Below are positions 25,560 through 33,755 of a DNA stretch of 64,000 nt, in pieces. How positions within the stretch are numbered: the stretch's first letter is position 1; each line of letters starts with the position of its first letter. Below the pieces are notes generated by a model, which was given only the letters and a program-made list of their open reading frames with translations, had not been told where the DNA came from and ran no database searches. Location: contig NZ_KB913017.1 of the NCBI RefSeq assembly GCF_000383975.1, positions 62,001-126,000 of the forward strand. Reading direction: 5' to 3'. The stretch comes from Natronorubrum tibetense GA33. Lineage in GTDB: Archaea; Halobacteriota; Halobacteria; Halobacteriales; Natrialbaceae. The position numbers and the translations under genes were made by a program.

Positions 25560-25880
25560 AGTGGCGCGCGCTGTCGGCCGTCAGAGCGAAGCGAGGTTCG
25601 AGCGGAGTGAGAACCTCGGACAGAGAACGGTGAACGGAGTGAACCGTGAGCGAAAGCGAGGACAGGCGATACTGACGTGCGGGGTCGTCGCGAGTAGCGC
25701 GGGACCTTTGGTCCCGCGGACCGTGCGAACTGGCGCGAAGCGTCCGTAAGCAGATGAAACGAGCGACTGCGTGGACGACGCAAAGCGTCTTCCTATGGAT
25801 GATCGAGCGACTGCAAGGAGCGAGTGAATCGGATGGGGAGGGCGTGGAATTCATCGCCGCCAGCGGGAGCAGGACACCCG
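25560..25880 (+). repeat. intergenic inverted repeat, left arm
   Basis: This 320-base non-coding stretch after menD recurs in inverted orientation at 28940-29140. The best block, 25614-25653, is 40 bases identical to the reverse complement of 29043-29082. A second block at about 25820-25864 matches 28950-28996 with few changes. About 100 bases in the middle, including a perfect hairpin at 25698-25718, are present only in this arm. Its richness in GAGCGAA/GTGAGCG-type words is typical of interspersed haloarchaeal repeats, and it is probably non-coding. Confidence 0.8.
25698..25718. repeat. perfect 9-bp hairpin with TTT loop
   Basis: CGCGGGACC at 25698-25706 and GGTCCCGCG at 25710-25718 are perfect complements around a three-base TTT loop. 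It lies inside the left arm of the intergenic repeat, 220 bases after menD, and could be a termination signal or part of a repeat-element RNA fold. Confidence 0.7.
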
Positions 25881-25909: not shown

Positions 25910-27079
25910 TTACGGCCGAAGCGCCCACCAGAGCGCGACGGCGTAGCCGAATGGGATCCAGACGAAGCCGAGTGTGACCAATCCCGTGATCGAAAACGCC
26001 GGGACGGACGCCAACTGATCGAGTCCGAGCGGGAACAGCACGCTCCAGAATCCGAACACCGCGGTCGCGATACGCGGTCTCGTGAGCAGATAGCCGACAA
26101 AGGCGAGCGTGCACGCGGCGACGATCGCGTTGATCGCGAGCGGAAACAGCGGCGTCACGCTTGCCGCGACGAACAGCGGATACAGCAGCCAGAGACAACC
26201 GATCGTCACTGCGGTCGTCTGCGTTATCGCCTGGCCCTCCCACTCGAGGTCGACCTCCCCCTCCCAGTCGTGGACGGCGTACCGAAAGCCCGAGGAAGCG
26301 CCCTCGTTGGGCGTACCTGAGGGGCTGGACGCCCCGGCGGCGCTAGCCGTCCCGGTGCCGGTAGCGGTGGTCGCCCCACCGACACCGTTGGCCGTCCCGG
26401 TCACACCACTCGAGGATGCGTCGCCATTCGAGGATGCTGCGTTGCTCGAGCCGTCACTCGAGCGGCCGCCCTCGGTCACGAACGTCCACCCGCCGCTGGC
26501 TCGCTGCTGGGCCGTCTTCTGCTGGCGTCGCGCGCGCTGACGGGCGTGGTGGCTCCCGGTTCGACCGCTCCGGCTCCCGGTTCGACCGTCTGAATTTCCG
26601 GCTCGATTCCGGCGGGAAGACTCTCCCCTCGAGTGCGCTCGACCGCTCCCCGTTCGCGTTCGATTCCTGTTGCCTCGGCGGTCGTGGCCCGCGGCCGTTT
26701 CGTTGGCGGTCCCTCGCGAGGTGGTGGTACTGGATCGATCCGCGGATGCCGTTTCGGTTCCCGACCGAGTCGTCCGCTCGGCAGTGGCGTCGTTGTCGGT
26801 ATCCCCGTCCGGTGGACTCGAATCCGGGGAGTTCGTCCCACTCGAGCGCTCGGCGAGGCGGACGTAGGAATCGTGGCCCAGACGGTCGTAGCGCGCTCGT
26901 TCGGTGCCGTCAGTGAGTACGGATCTGGCCCTCGAGACCCGCTTGAACTGGGCGGCAGCATCGGGGGCGTCGTTGTGATCCGGATGCGTCTCGAGGACGC
27001 GCTCGCGGTAGGCCGTCCGGATCTCGGCGCGGGTCGCGTCGGGGTCGACCTCGAGGACCTCGTAGTACGTCTGCCCCAT
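25910..27079 (-). CDS. DnaJ-domain protein with C-terminal membrane helices
   Basis: A 389-residue protein. Residues 1-70 are a J domain: YYEVLEVDPDATRAEIRTAYR and the Hsp70-stimulating HPD motif in LETHPDHND. A low-complexity region of about 180 residues follows, rich in Ser, Gly, Arg and Thr. The C-terminus has four hydrophobic helices (for example AVTIGCLWLLYPLFVAASV and ITGLVTLGFVWIPFGYAVAL). It is therefore a membrane-tethered J protein that would recruit DnaK to the membrane surface, and is distinct from the canonical zinc-finger DnaJ. It is probably monocistronic and points away from amphi-Trp/menB. Confidence 0.85.
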   Translation of the reverse strand: MGQTYYEVLEVDPDATRAEIRTAYRERVLETHPDHNDAPDAAAQFKRVSRARSVLTDGTERARYDRLGHDSYVRLAERSSGTNSPDSSPPDGDTDNDATAERTTRSGTETASADRSSTTTSRGTANETAAGHDRRGNRNRTRTGSGRAHSRGESSRRNRAGNSDGRTGSRSGRTGSHHARQRARRQQKTAQQRASGGWTFVTEGGRSSDGSSNAASSNGDASSSGVTGTANGVGGATTATGTGTASAAGASSPSGTPNEGASSGFRYAVHDWEGEVDLEWEGQAITQTTAVTIGCLWLLYPLFVAASVTPLFPLAINAIVAACTLAFVGYLLTRPRIATAVFGFWSVLFPLGLDQLASVPAFSITGLVTLGFVWIPFGYAVALWWALRP

Positions 27080-27492: not shown

Positions 27493-27786
27493 TTACTCGA
27501 CTCGCGGTCCCGTCTCGTCGGTCCGACCGGGAAGCTCGAGTTCGATCTCGAGTTTCGGCTCGTCCATCCCGTCGAAATCGATCTCGAGTGCGACCGGGTC
27601 GCCGAACGCGAACGGGAGCACCCACTCGTCGTCGCCGATCGTGAGGTCCTCTCCGTCGCGAAGCTGTTCGCCGATCGCGATGAGGAACTCGCCGGCGTCG
27701 CTCGCGTCGAGACGATACTCCCGTTCGAAGTTACGTCCGGCGCGGATCGTCGTTCGGTCGTCGGTGTCGGGGTGGTCGGCTGTCAT
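27493..27786 (-). CDS. amphi-Trp domain protein
   Basis: A 97-residue protein beginning MTADHPDTDDRTTIRAG. The pattern FEREYRLDASDAGEFLIAIGEQLRDGEDLTI followed by short strands (WVLPFAFGDP, VALEIDFDG) and a final KLEIELELPGR matches the small amphi-Trp domain family, common and multi-copy in haloarchaea, of unknown function. The same family occurs at 51940-52188. The ATG at 27786 is chosen because the domain begins shortly after it. It is divergent from menB. Confidence 0.75.
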   Translation of the reverse strand: MTADHPDTDDRTTIRAGRNFEREYRLDASDAGEFLIAIGEQLRDGEDLTIGDDEWVLPFAFGDPVALEIDFDGMDEPKLEIELELPGRTDETGPRVE

Positions 27787-27941
27787 CGTCTGTGCTACAG
27801 GGCACCGACGGGTATGGCGTTCACGGTGGTTCCGTCTCAACCGTTAGCTCTCGAGCTCCGCGTCGTTCGCCCGCCGACGGTTTCGACTCCTCGAGACACG
27901 ACGCGAACCTATTTCACCCGCTGCCCACCAAACACGAGCCA

Positions 27942-28835
27942 ATGGTTTCGGAACTCTTCGACGCGGAACAGTGGGAACCGGTCGCGGACCTGAACGACGA
28001 GTTCGAGGACATCACCTACCATCGCGCGGTCGACTCCGGCACGGTTCGGATCGCCTTCGACCGACCCGCAGTTCGCAACGCGTTCCGGCCGGGGACGGTC
28101 GACGAACTGTACGACGCGCTCGATCACGCCAAGCGCCAGACCGACGTCGGCTGTATCCTGCTGACCGGAAACGGCCCGTCGCCGAAAGACGACGGCTGGG
28201 CCTTCTGTTCCGGCGGGGATCAGACGATCCGCGGGGAGGACGGATATCAGTACGAGGGAGACGAGGAGCGAGCCTCCGAACAGGGACGGCTACATATTCT
28301 CGAGGTGCAGCGACTCATTCGACACATTCCAAAGGTCGTCGTCTGTGTCGTTCCCGGCTGGGCCGTCGGCGGCGGCCACTCGCTGCACGTCGTCTGCGAT
28401 CTCACGCTCGCGAGCGCGGAGCACGCGAAGTTCCTCCAGACCGATCCGGACGTTGCGAGCTACGACGCCGGCTTCGGCTCGGCCTACCTCGCCAAGCAGA
28501 TTGGCCAGAAGAAGGCTCGAGAAGTGTTTTTCCTCGGAAAGACGTACAGCGCCGAGGAGGCCGAAGAGATGGGGATGGTCAACGAGGCGGTTCCGCACGA
28601 GGAACTCGAGGAGACAGCTCTCGAGTGGGGCGAACGCATCAACGCGAAGAGTCCGACGGCGATGCGGATGCTCAAGTACGCGTTCAACATGACCGACGAC
28701 GGGATGGTTGGCCAGCAGGTGTTCGCCGGCGAGGCGACGCGACTGGGCTACATGACCGACGAGGGGAAGGAGGGCCGGGACGCGTTCGTCGAGGGCCGAG
28801 ATCCCGAGTTCGACGACTATCCGTGGCACTACTGA
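27942..28835 (+). CDS. menB: MenB, 1,4-dihydroxy-2-naphthoyl-CoA synthase
   Basis: A 297-residue crotonase-fold enzyme that cyclises o-succinylbenzoyl-CoA. Diagnostic segments are RPAVRNAFRPGTVDELY, GWAFCSGGDQTIRGEDGY, the oxyanion-hole region CVVPGWAVGGGHSLHVVCDL, and QTDPDVASYDAGFGSAYLAK. The C-terminal YMTDEGKEGRDAFVEGRDP is also conserved. The ATG at 27942 gives the usual start; the upstream in-frame extension overlaps the divergent gene region. A TATA-like CCTATTTC lies about 30 bases before it, so menB appears to have its own promoter, apart from menF-menD and menA-menC-menE. Confidence 0.94.
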   Translation: MVSELFDAEQWEPVADLNDEFEDITYHRAVDSGTVRIAFDRPAVRNAFRPGTVDELYDALDHAKRQTDVGCILLTGNGPSPKDDGWAFCSGGDQTIRGEDGYQYEGDEERASEQGRLHILEVQRLIRHIPKVVVCVVPGWAVGGGHSLHVVCDLTLASAEHAKFLQTDPDVASYDAGFGSAYLAKQIGQKKAREVFFLGKTYSAEEAEEMGMVNEAVPHEELEETALEWGERINAKSPTAMRMLKYAFNMTDDGMVGQQVFAGEATRLGYMTDEGKEGRDAFVEGRDPEFDDYPWHY

Positions 28836-29287: not shown

Positions 29288-30601
29288 GTGACACTTCCCG
29301 ATCGGTCCGCGCTGTCCCGTCGGGACTACCTCCGGGCGTTGGTCGCCGTCGGCGGCGCGAGCGCGCTCGCCGCCTGTACCTCCGAGAGCGACGAGATCGA
29401 CGTCCCATCGGGCACGGACGACCCGGACTCGCTTCCCGAGCGACAGCACGCCTGGAACGACGCCCTCACGCGGGACGACGACGGCAACGTCCGACCGCCG
29501 GAACACCACGTCCTGGTCGCGCTCTCGCTCGTCGACGAGCCGACCGACGAGACTCGAGCGAAGGTCGAATCTTCCTTGCAGGACCTCGAGCACGCCTACG
29601 AGTGGAGCAACGAGGGGCTGCTCTTCACGCTCGGCTACACGCCGGCGTACTTCGACCGGTTCGACGAGTCGCTGCCCGACGAGGTCGACCTCCCGGAGCC
29701 GGAGGCGATTGTGGGGAAGATCGACACTGATCTCCCGGCGTCGGAAACGAGCGAGGAGAAGGTCGATCCGGTCGACCCGTTCGACGAGTTCGACGCCGTC
29801 CTCCACCTCGCGAGCGATCACTCGCAGGTCGTCCTCGAGGCCGAGGAGGGACTGTTCGGCGAGGGCGAGGAGTTCAACGGGCGCGAGATCGAGACCGATC
29901 TAACGGGCGTCTTCGAGCGCGTCGACGACCGCCGTCGAACCGGCTTCGTCGGCGCGGGACTCCCCGCGGACCACACTGATCTCTCGGGAGTTCCCGACTC
30001 CGTTCCGGAGGACGCCCCGTTTTTCATGGGCTTTCGGTCCGGCTTCGCCGAGAGCCAGGCCACCGAGGATCGGGTGACGATCGAGGACGGGCCGTTCGCG
30101 GGCGCGACGACCCAACACGTCGAGTCGATGACCATCCAGCTACGGACCTGGCTCGAGCAGGACAGCCACTACCAGCGGGTCGCGAAGATGTTCAGCCCGG
30201 AGCACGCAGACGAGGACCTGACCGGCGACATCGGCGAGGCGCTGGGAGCCTCGAACGGGCTGACCGACGAGCGAATCGAAGGGACCGAGTCAGACGCCCG
30301 CGGCGGGGTCGTCGGCCACGCCCAGAAGGCCGCTCGAGCGAGGGAAGACGGCAACCCGCTGTTGCTCCGACGCGATTTCAACACCGTCGACGGCGACACG
30401 CCGGGACTCCACTTTCTCTCGCTGCAGGCGGGCATCGACGAGTTCGTCCGCGTTCGCGAGGCGATGGAGGGCGACGATCTCGACGCACCGAACGCGAACA
30501 ACGGCATTCGGAGTTACATCTTTCCGAATCAGCGCGGCAACTACTTGATCCCACCTCGATCGCTGCGAGCGCTTCCGCCGCCGGCGCCGGATGGAGCGTG
30601 A
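29288..30601 (+). CDS. Tat-exported lipoprotein with DyP-peroxidase-like fold
   Basis: A 437-residue protein from a GTG start. The N-terminus has a twin-arginine motif (SRRDYLRAL) and a lipobox (ALAACTS), so it is a Tat-exported lipoprotein. The C-terminal half resembles dye-decolourising peroxidases: VESMTIQLRTWLEQDSHYQ, a GVVGHAQKA segment with a possible heme-ligating His, NPLLLRRDFN, and HFLSLQAGIDEFVRVREAM. The sequence belongs to a divergent haloarchaeal subgroup, so heme binding is inferred. In bacteria a DyP-type protein (EfeB) works beside the iron uptake proteins EfeO/EfeU. Here it is followed by a P19-like metal lipoprotein, which supports an iron-related role. It starts the three-gene unit ending at 32683. 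Confidence 0.8.
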   Translation: MTLPDRSALSRRDYLRALVAVGGASALAACTSESDEIDVPSGTDDPDSLPERQHAWNDALTRDDDGNVRPPEHHVLVALSLVDEPTDETRAKVESSLQDLEHAYEWSNEGLLFTLGYTPAYFDRFDESLPDEVDLPEPEAIVGKIDTDLPASETSEEKVDPVDPFDEFDAVLHLASDHSQVVLEAEEGLFGEGEEFNGREIETDLTGVFERVDDRRRTGFVGAGLPADHTDLSGVPDSVPEDAPFFMGFRSGFAESQATEDRVTIEDGPFAGATTQHVESMTIQLRTWLEQDSHYQRVAKMFSPEHADEDLTGDIGEALGASNGLTDERIEGTESDARGGVVGHAQKAARAREDGNPLLLRRDFNTVDGDTPGLHFLSLQAGIDEFVRVREAMEGDDLDAPNANNGIRSYIFPNQRGNYLIPPRSLRALPPPAPDGA

Positions 30602-30632
30602 CGATCGGACAACCGAGCCCACGAAAATACCA

Positions 30633-31979
30633 ATGCACGAACGCGACATCGACCGACGGACGTTCGTTCGATCGACGGGAGCGACAGCCGGGGCGCTCGC
30701 GCTGGCGGGCTGTGCGGGGTTCGGCGGCGACGACTCCGGAGAAGACGGAGGCGACGATTCAGACGCCGGAGACGACCCCGACGACGAACTGCCGGCGCCG
30801 GCGTTCCCCGAGGTCGAGGACCCACCGGACGCGGTCTACCTCCCGACGCACAGGGAATCGATGCGGGTACTCGAGCCGGTCTCGGCCGGCGACTACACGC
30901 TCGCGCCGATGCTGTCCTACCCGCACCCATTCTGGCTCGTGACCGGCAGCGGCGGCGAGGACGACGTTCAGCGCGTCGACCCCGAGCAAAGCGGCGGCGT
31001 CCACCTGATGTTCGCCGTCTGGGACGACGAGACGGGCATCGTCCTCCCCGTCGACACCGGTGCCGAGATCACGGTCTCGTTGGACGGCGAGCAGGTCGGC
31101 TCGCCACAATCCGCGTGGCCGATGATCTCACAGGAGATGGGCTTTCACTTCGGCGATAACGTCCCGCTCGAGGAGGAAGGAACCTACGTCATCGACGTCG
31201 AGATACCGCCGCTCTCGGTCCGAACGACCGGCGACCTCGAGGGTCGATTCACTGAGTCGGCGAGCGCGACGTTCGAGTTCGAGTACGACCGGGAGTTCAT
31301 GCTCGAGGTAACAGACGGCGTCGAGTACCTCGACGAGTCGGAGTGGGGCGAACCCGGCGCGCTCGAGCCGATGGCACACGGAGAGCACGCGGACGACGAG
31401 CACGGTGATGGAGACGACCACGGCGACGAGCACGATCAGGGTGACGACGACCACGACGAACACGACGACCACGACGACCACGACCACCACGCCGAGATAC
31501 CCTACTCTGCACTTCCGGCGGCGGCAGCGTATCCGGGGACCCACCTCGAGCCGGTCGACGGCTCCGGTGAACCCGCCGAGCCCGAGGGCGGAGATCACGA
31601 GTCGGACGACCTCCCGCGAAGCAGCGACGCGGCGTTCGTCACGACGCTCCTCGAGTCCGAATCCCGCCTGGCCGATGGCGACGACTACTACCTGCTCGTC
31701 TCGCCGCGAACGCCGTACAACCGCGTCCCGCTCGCGGATATGTCGCTGCATGCGACGGTCGAGCGCGAGGGCGAGACGGTCACGGACGACGCGACGCTCG
31801 AGCAGACCATCGACGGCGAGTACGACCTGCACTACGGAACGTCGCTCGCCGACGTCCAGCCGGGCGATTCGGTCACGATCACAGTCGACTCGCCGCCGCA
31901 GGTGGCTCGCCATCAGGGCTACGAGACGGCGTTTCTCGAGATGTCGCCGATCGAACTGGCGGTGCCGGAGGACGGATGA
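30633..31979 (+). CDS. Tat lipoprotein with P19-like iron/metal-binding domain and His-rich segment
   Basis: A 448-residue lipoprotein from the ATG at 30633 (MHERDIDRRTFVRSTG). It has a Tat motif (DRRTF) and a lipobox (LALAGCAG). The N-terminal domain, about residues 60-250, with YLPTHRESM, AGDYTLAPMLSYPHPFWLV and MFAVWDDETGIVLP, recalls the P19/Tp34 periplasmic iron-binding family. Between about 255 and 300 lies a striking Asp/His-rich linker with more than ten histidines, likely to bind metal ions loosely. A second domain of about 150 residues follows. A start at 30591 would overlap the upstream stop and is less likely. It sits between the DyP-like protein and the anchored cohesin-like protein, all with the same orientation. 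Confidence 0.78.
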   Translation: MHERDIDRRTFVRSTGATAGALALAGCAGFGGDDSGEDGGDDSDAGDDPDDELPAPAFPEVEDPPDAVYLPTHRESMRVLEPVSAGDYTLAPMLSYPHPFWLVTGSGGEDDVQRVDPEQSGGVHLMFAVWDDETGIVLPVDTGAEITVSLDGEQVGSPQSAWPMISQEMGFHFGDNVPLEEEGTYVIDVEIPPLSVRTTGDLEGRFTESASATFEFEYDREFMLEVTDGVEYLDESEWGEPGALEPMAHGEHADDEHGDGDDHGDEHDQGDDDHDEHDDHDDHDHHAEIPYSALPAAAAYPGTHLEPVDGSGEPAEPEGGDHESDDLPRSSDAAFVTTLLESESRLADGDDYYLLVSPRTPYNRVPLADMSLHATVEREGETVTDDATLEQTIDGEYDLHYGTSLADVQPGDSVTITVDSPPQVARHQGYETAFLEMSPIELAVPEDG

Positions 31980-32683
31980 CGGGATCGCCGTCGCCACGCC
32001 GGTCGGCCGTCCTCGCGCTGGTCATCGCGTGCGCGCTCGTCGGCGTGCTGTTCGCTCCGGTAGTGGTCACCGCCGGCGACAACGCGACGACGGTCCAGTT
32101 CGATCCGCACGAACTCGAGGCGGAGCCGGGTGAGACCGTGACGATCGATCTCGTGGCGAGCACGCACGGCGGTTACGGCGGCGAAGGGATCGACGAACTG
32201 TCGATCGAACTGGCCTACGATTCGGACGCGCTGACCGTCACCGACGTCGAACACGGCCCGATGCTGACGGCCGGGAACGACGGCGCTGACGCGAACGGCT
32301 CAGCCGATGGCGACGGCGAAGCTAACGGCGGGGGTTCGGCCACCGTCGACGGCTCGGTCGATATCGACGACGAGCGCGGAACCGTCGGGATCGAACAGCA
32401 GCGCGAGCCCTCGGGCGACGGCGCCGTCGGAACGGAGACGGCGGCGATCATCACGCTCGAGGTCGCCGAAGACGCGCCGTCGACCACCAGCCTCGAGATC
32501 ACCGACGCGGAGGCGATACTCGTCACCGGCTATCCGCAAGCGTCGCTCGAGCGAGACGCGACCATCACGATCGGTGACGGCGGCGAATCGGAGGCCGGCG
32601 GAGACGACAGGATTCCCGGGTTCACGACGCTACTGGCTGTGGCCGTGACCGCTGCGACACTGTTCTACGTCAGTCGTCGATAG
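31976..32683 (+). CDS. secreted cohesin-like protein with PGF-CTERM-like anchor
   Basis: A 235-residue protein whose start overlaps the upstream stop by four bases. It has an N-terminal hydrophobic signal (SAVLALVIACALVGVLFAPVVV). A cohesin/type-I-like beta domain follows: VQFDPHELEAEPGETVTIDL and DELSIELAYDSDALTVTDVE. A Gly/Asp-rich insert is present, and the C-terminus DDRIPGFTTLLAVAV...SRR resembles the PGF-CTERM tripartite signal processed by archaeosortase. The protein is thus probably anchored on the cell surface. Cohesin-like domains bind partner proteins or carbohydrates, and this one may scaffold the two lipoproteins, though that is inference from the operon only. Confidence 0.78.
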   Translation: MTGSPSPRRSAVLALVIACALVGVLFAPVVVTAGDNATTVQFDPHELEAEPGETVTIDLVASTHGGYGGEGIDELSIELAYDSDALTVTDVEHGPMLTAGNDGADANGSADGDGEANGGGSATVDGSVDIDDERGTVGIEQQREPSGDGAVGTETAAIITLEVAEDAPSTTSLEITDAEAILVTGYPQASLERDATITIGDGGESEAGGDDRIPGFTTLLAVAVTAATLFYVSRR

Positions 32684-32813: not shown

Positions 32814-33755
32814 ATGAGTACGGCGGAGGTCGACATTTCACGGACGAAGGCGTGGCTGATGGCTGCACGCCCCCAGACCTTGCCCGCGGCGGCGGCGCCG
32901 ATAATCGTCGCCACGGGACTCGCGATTCACGAGGGCGTGTTCGCCCTGCTGCCGGCGGTCATGGCGTTCGTCGGGGCGGCACTGATCCAGATCGGAACCA
33001 ACTTCGCGAACGACTACTACGACGCGATCAAGGGTGCCGACACGGACGACCGGGAGGGGTTTACGCGGGTCACGCAGGCGGGAATCATCGAGCCCGAACG
33101 GGTGAAATTGGCGACGATCGTCACGTTCGCGCTGGCGATCGCTACCGGGACGTACCTCGTCTACGTCGGCGGGCTGCCGATCCTCGTCGTCGGACTGGTG
33201 AGCGTCGTCTGCGGCTGGGCCTACACGGGCGGTCCCTACCCGCTCGGGTACCACGGTCTCGGCGATCTGTTCGTCTTCGTCTTTTTCGGCGTCGTCGCCG
33301 TGATGGGCACGTTCTACGTCCAAGCCGCGGCGACGCTCGCGGATCCGCTCGCGACGGGGATTCCGGAGGGGACGGTGACGCGCGAGGCGTTCCTCGCGAG
33401 CCTCCCGGTCGCCGGAATTTCGACGGCGATTCTGGTGGTGAACAACGTTCGCGACCTCGAGACCGACGCCGAGACGGGCAAGCGCACGCTGGCGGTTCGA
33501 CTCGGCTACCGATGGAGTCGCGCCGAGTACGTGGCCCTGCTCGGACTCGCCTACGTTACTCCCGTCTGGCTCTGGCTCGGCGAGGCTTTCGGTCCCGGCG
33601 TGTTGCTCCCGCTAGTTACGCTCCCTTACGCGGCCGTGATCGCCCGAACCGTCTGTACCCGAACCGACGGCGAGGCGCTCAACCCGGCCCTCGAGGGGAC
33701 CGGCAAACTGCTCGCGATCTACGCGGCCCTGTTCGCTGCAGGGGTGGTGCTGTGA
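32814..33755 (+). CDS. menA: MenA, 1,4-dihydroxy-2-naphthoate polyprenyltransferase
   Basis: A 313-residue UbiA-family membrane prenyltransferase with about eight to nine helices. The two aspartate-rich Mg-diphosphate motifs are visible: [18 protein letters not shown] (about residues 64-81) and [21 protein letters not shown] (about 214-234). The start [20 protein letters not shown] is typical of MenA. It attaches the polyprenyl chain to the naphthoate ring, giving demethylmenaquinone. Its stop overlaps the start of menC by two or three bases, so menA-menC-menE form one operon. Confidence 0.94.

Follow-up and report, generated by a model that had tools for sequence, protein, structure and literature searches.

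We analyzed three consecutive genes of the haloarchaeon Natronorubrum tibetense GA33 that lie in a 64,000-nucleotide stretch of contig NZ_KB913017.1 (positions 62,001 to 126,000; hereafter the window, whose numbering is used throughout). An earlier prediction, made from the letters of the DNA alone, had read them as three exported proteins forming a putative iron or metal uptake set. The three open reading frames (ORFs), whose products we term P1, P2 and P3, are real, all lie on the + strand and are tightly packed between menB and menA. P1 (29288..30601, +, 437 aa) is predicted to be a Tat lipoprotein, with an N-terminal twin-arginine motif and lipobox (SRRDYLR...ALAAC). The second ORF is open from 30591, on which the P2 domain ranges given below are counted; its favored start, chosen from an alignment of orthologues and the position of the lipobox (DRRTF...LAGC), is the ATG at 30633, 32 nt past the end of P1. 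P2 (30633..31979, +) is thus likewise a predicted Tat lipoprotein. P3 (31976..32683, +) starts within an ATGA that overlaps the P2 stop codon, and has a C-terminal PGF motif and a transmembrane anchor. The nearest orthologous locus found is in Natronorubrum texcoconense, where P1 shares 87% identity.

P1 belongs to the family DUF7405 (PF24152, 6e-143). Searches of the Protein Data Bank (PDB) with the single sequences of P1 and P2 gave no matches, and the first of the predicted resemblances, that of P1 to DyP peroxidases, was recovered from a structural model. This was built with AlphaFold2 from 47 homologues (predicted local distance difference test score, pLDDT, 84.8; predicted template modeling score, pTM, 0.86) and matches DyP peroxidases among known structures (Foldseek E 2e-16). 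The best fold match by VIA-align is EfeB of Sphingomonas (6jbn; Z 25.8, root-mean-square deviation 3.1, 313 residues aligned). Some DUF7405 genes (genomes G004 and G024) also pass the cut-off for Pfam Dyp_perox_C. The alignment of the Escherichia coli EfeB sequence to the P1 profile is limited to the C-terminal part, and the placement of P1 rests on the fold match and on motifs. By motif, GFKDG (D235), H329 and R347 of E. coli EfeB correspond to GFRSG (S251), H344 and R361 of P1. The proximal heme-ligand histidine H344 and the distal arginine R361 are invariant in 81/81 P1 homologues, whereas the position of the GXXDG aspartate is never Asp (Ser in 76, Ala in 3, Asn and Thr in one each). P1 is therefore probably a heme-binding protein of DyP fold that lacks the canonical catalytic aspartate. 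It resembles EfeB (YcdB), an A-type DyP peroxidase and proposed deferrochelatase, in its fold over the whole mature protein, its export by the Tat pathway and the register of its histidine and arginine. In contrast to EfeB, it is a lipoprotein, shares only about 18% identity, has Ser, Ala, Asn or Thr in place of Asp235 and is partnered by DUF7350 rather than EfeO, in a genome in which EfeU was not found.

P2 matches DUF7350 (PF24041, 4e-53, in two stretches) and, more weakly, the Fe2+ transport/P19 family PF10634 (1.4e-5). In its model (pLDDT 82.5), residues 75-225 adopt the P19/FetP/FtrA/Tp34 fold, in agreement with the P19/Tp34 resemblance first proposed; the N-terminal domain superposes on FetP (3nrq) with Z 12.5 and a deviation of 2.6 over 134 residues, and a profile search matches FtrA (E 1.5e-6). 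The N-terminal (~74-246) and C-terminal (~332-461) domains are homologous to one another (hhalign E 1.3e-9), so P2 is a tandem duplication of the P19 domain. By Pfam assignment it is not an EfeO protein, although no genome search for the EfeO/EfeM M75 domain was made. Outside the haloarchaea, the members of the phylum that were listed gave no PF10634 match (148 genomes sampled). Between the two domains lies an Asp/His-rich linker (31376..31490, +) that is real, as originally noted, but is variable and not a feature of the family: it is absent from the orthologue in the same genus (L094/G293) and from most DUF7350 proteins. Most DUF7350 proteins whose gene precedes a cohesin gene have such a linker, and few others do. 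One protein with a His-rich linker and no cohesin gene after it is the second DUF7350 copy of N. tibetense itself (in the region C4 ~141325-145236; L104 8326-12237), where the linker is very rich in histidine (16 His in 40 residues).

Conservation in P2 is concentrated on a putative metal site. H138, M140, M178, M183 and H186 are invariant in 139/139 DUF7350 proteins, and all 137 sequences that can be aligned at H441, in the C-terminal domain, share it. As a yardstick we used Campylobacter jejuni P19, its sequence confirmed from the PDB, whose copper ligands are H42, M88, H95 and H132. The first three of these align with H138, M178 and H186 of P2; H132 has no histidine counterpart in the N-terminal domain, and H441 is a candidate stand-in, which is a guess on our part. 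The acidic patch of P19 that is said to hold an iron analogue consists of Glu44, Asp46 and Asp92 (PMC9174327). In DUF7350 these residues are replaced by M140, by Thr, Ser or Val, and by M183, with methionine at the first and third positions in 139/139 proteins. Judged by its residues, the P2 site is copper-like and lacks the iron half of the P19 site. P2 shares with the periplasmic copper-iron proteins P19, FetP and FtrA (PF10634) the fold of its N-terminal domain and three corresponding copper ligands, but differs in its duplicated domain, in the loss of the iron-site acids, in having no H132 in the N-terminal domain and in the lack of an accompanying FetM or FTR1.

P3 was first described as a cohesin-like protein with a PGF-CTERM-like anchor. 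As a single sequence it falls below the cut-off for Pfam Cohesin (0.01), but a profile of 20 P3 homologues matches cellulosome-anchoring cohesins in the PDB (best 3ul4, E 3.7e-6), which upholds the cohesin assignment. As to the anchor, TIGR04126 (PGF-CTERM) is matched by 7 of the 20 members and not by the copy at this locus, which does have IPGF, a hydrophobic stretch and RR. Unlike cellulosomal cohesins, P3 has only one domain, a small one, its anchor is of the archaeal PGF type, and no scaffoldin or cellulase genes adjoin it. A dockerin search of the genome returned one protein only (C1:1728657; L257), unlinked to P3; ahead of the dockerin in that protein is a segment that, by eye, resembles a cohesin. 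P3 may act as a scaffold.

The first two genes form a conserved set across haloarchaea, as had been anticipated. Of 391 genomes of the haloarchaeal class, 346 have DUF7405 and 337 have DUF7350 (about 86-88%); Haloferax volcanii is among those that carry both. Their presence is strongly correlated, since among the negative genomes listed for each family 15 of 20 names are common to both, and the two genes are usually adjacent. We surveyed synteny in 80 named loci; because these were chosen by similarity to P1, relatives are over-represented among them. A P2 gene is found no more than 3 kb from P1 in 64/80 loci, on the same strand in 61; P3 is nearby in 23 and men genes are nearby in 23. In a tree of 137 DUF7350 proteins, those of the P2 type, with or without men genes, form one clade (SH-aLRT 99).

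The placement of the set in a menaquinone region is confirmed by strong matches to menB upstream (27942..28835, +) and menA downstream (32814..33755, +). The proposed link to menaquinone is real within Natrialbaceae: the full triplet accompanies men genes in 17 loci, and DUF7350 alone lies between menB and menA in two further Natrialbaceae genomes (L223, L232). However, six loci have the triplet with no men genes nearby (L121, L122, L124, L155, L156 and L174, from Natronoglomus, two Halostagnicola, Natronocalculus, Salinarchaeum and Halorubrum). We therefore regard the men cluster as one location of the triplet rather than a requirement, and reject the view that its role is necessarily menaquinone-specific.

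Elsewhere, genes for terminal oxidase assembly factors recur beside DUF7350. Of 138 DUF7350 copies, close relatives counted, 10 have SCO1 no more than 2.5 kb away, compared to the 0.7 that a density of 4 SCO genes per 4.93 Mb would give by chance. These associations fall in two separate clades of the DUF7350 tree and usually include thioredoxin (TlpA-like) and CcdA-like genes, the CcdA label being based on motif and similarity (the copy scanned has no Pfam match). More than 10 genomes of the genus to which Haloferax mucosum belongs share the order DUF7350-SCO1, divergent DUF7405, CcdA and thioredoxin; the second DUF7350 gene of N. tibetense (C4:141328) is divergent from SCO1, thioredoxin and CcdA-like genes. 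CtaA, which makes heme A, directly follows DUF7350 in three loci (L110, L238, L242). Sco and TlpA help load copper into terminal oxidases (PMC6696091).

Other neighbors are more mixed. Closely similar DUF7405-DUF7350-DUF7350 clusters (L105, L106, L032-L044) look mobile and are spread over about a dozen genomes from several genera. In L105 and L106, their flanks encode a DtxR-type regulator that carries a FeoA domain, a cupredoxin, a multicopper oxidase and a heavy-metal P-type ATPase with a CPC motif, and also yield a weak ZIP match. We considered this ATPase as a copper pump and dropped the assignment, because the CPC motif alone does not fix the metal. In Halarchaeum and Halobacterium, an FtsX/MacB-type permease and an ABC ATPase lie near DUF7405-DUF7350 (L193 3598-6660; L169 10463-12465), an arrangement reminiscent of the Campylobacter fet cluster.

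From the families, folds, residue conservation and gene neighborhoods, we infer that P1 and P2 bind heme and metal, which metal this is, which way it is transferred and to which clients. Our tentative preference is that they work as a pair, handling copper and heme on the external side of the membrane in connection with the aerobic respiratory chain; this explanation seems the best available, even if the odds remain somewhat against it. The metal-handling role originally suggested for the set is supported in general terms, with P1, P2 and P3 as a putative extracytoplasmic metal-handling unit. P1 would be a lipid-anchored heme protein of DyP fold, with the catalytic aspartate lost but the heme-ligand histidine and the distal arginine retained, and P2 a lipid-anchored tandem P19 protein that binds copper through H138, M140, M178, M183, H186 and possibly H441. 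The pair would bind copper and heme outside the membrane and hand copper, or electrons exchanged between copper and heme, to proteins of the respiratory chain, acting as a metallochaperone module of the PCuAC/Sco type rather than as an EfeUOB-like iron importer. In what is mainly a Natrialbaceae variant, the His-rich linker would buffer metal and the PGF-anchored P3 would tether or scaffold the set on the cell surface.

Comparison with the PCuAC/Sco1/TlpA module, which inserts copper into heme-copper oxidases, shows both likenesses and differences. DUF7350 has a putative copper site of His and Met only, and SCO1, thioredoxin-like, CcdA-like and CtaA genes are repeatedly nearby. The motif of the copper chaperone PCuAC is H(M)X10MX21HXM (PMC6696091), and PCuAC has a cupredoxin-like fold; P2 instead has the order HXM...M...M..H in a P19 fold, with a DyP-like heme protein added. 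A more specific and, in our judgment, doubtful version of the proposal is that the haloarchaeal DyP-P19 pair was recruited to a PCuAC-like role, metallating terminal oxidases together with SCO1, TlpA/CcdA and CtaA. DUF7350 would then be an intramolecular P19 pseudo-dimer whose second domain completes the His/Met copper site, DUF7405 would either carry heme or act as a redox partner that depends on heme, and one branch, equipped with a cohesin as its surface scaffold, would have settled permanently in the menaquinone cluster.

Three observations weigh against a copper- and respiration-linked role. The SCO1 and CtaA neighbors belong to paralogous DUF7350 clades rather than to the men-type P2 clade, so the function they suggest need not transfer to P2. 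A copper site is compatible with a role in iron handling, since P19 itself works in iron uptake and also binds copper. Moreover, the DtxR/FeoA repressor, multicopper oxidase and weak ZIP match of L105 and L106 fit iron or mixed metals.

The main competing explanation, which we consider unlikely but ahead of the remaining alternatives, is that P1 and P2 are an archaeal EfeOB/FtrAB-like pair capturing ferrous or heme iron for an unlinked permease of a family other than FTR1. In its favor are EfeB as the best fold match of P1, the P19/FetP fold and PF10634 match of P2, the DtxR/FeoA regulator, multicopper oxidase and weak ZIP match of the mobile cluster and the FtsX/ABC genes that recall the fet cluster. 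According to the title of a reference cited in PMC10783030, P19 and FetP need their copper site for iron transport, which would fit a copper site in an iron uptake protein. On the other hand, the original prediction had noted that no EfeU/FTR1 permease lies beside the set, and this absence extends to the whole genome, where PF03239 was not found while positive controls were detected. A check for a co-conserved permease likewise found no recurrent iron permease adjoining the pair. The iron-site acids of P19 are absent in 139/139 DUF7350 proteins, the distal aspartate of EfeB is gone, and what recurs nearby instead are genes for the copper and heme assembly of terminal oxidases. An importer of the EfeUOB/P19 type, the parallel initially drawn, is thus disfavored.

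Extracytoplasmic redox or stress protection, with P1 as a heme peroxidase or scavenger and P2 supplying or removing copper so that Fenton chemistry is kept low around menaquinone and the respiratory chain, appears improbable. The men cluster location and thioredoxin-type neighbors are consistent with it, as are the invariant proximal histidine and distal arginine of P1, given that arginine suffices in some DyPs; however, the distal aspartate is lost family-wide and neither catalase nor superoxide dismutase is among the recurrent families of the neighbor tally. Least likely is surface metal buffering or resistance, in which the linker and P2 would sequester excess Cu, Zn or Ni on a P3 scaffold: the His-rich linker of most cohesin-associated copies and the CPC-motif heavy-metal ATPase beside the pair in the mobile cluster speak for it, but the linker varies even within a genus whereas the P19-site residues are invariant, and a resistance trait would not be expected in nearly every genome of the class.

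To our knowledge, the extracellular loading of copper and heme into oxidases of haloarchaea is poorly described. DUF7405 and DUF7350 are catalogued families of unknown function related to known kinds of protein, DyP and P19, and no paper in the literature searched names either. As far as that literature shows, their fold, duplication, altered sites and respiratory-assembly neighborhood are undescribed. DyP and P19 proteins go unmentioned in the main text of a Haloferax iron-starvation proteome (PMC11349517). If the copper- and respiration-linked role is correct, two near-universal families gain a testable function in the genetic model H. volcanii, and P19 proteins would prove to have been adapted to deliver copper instead of importing iron.

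In about 38 loci (e.g., L143 7044-7918), P1-type genes have nearby a regulator with two helix-turn-helix domains (HVO_0163_N family), which is frequently accompanied by DUF7471, a small membrane protein. In N. tibetense, a DUF7471 and regulator pair is at C1:3004050, away from P1. One incidental paper on HVO_0163 was found in the literature searched. The intergenic region 5' of P1 (28925-29125) holds a dispersed repeat with 44 full or partial matches genome-wide. Inverted copies lie at 25584-25661 (78 nt, 94%) and 25819-25880 (62 nt, 84%), beyond the dnaJ-amphiTrp-menB segment on the side opposite to P1. Between menD and menB, the opposite strand encodes a DnaJ-domain membrane protein (25910-27079, -) and an amphi-Trp protein (27493-27840, -), and the spacing of this interval differs among relatives.

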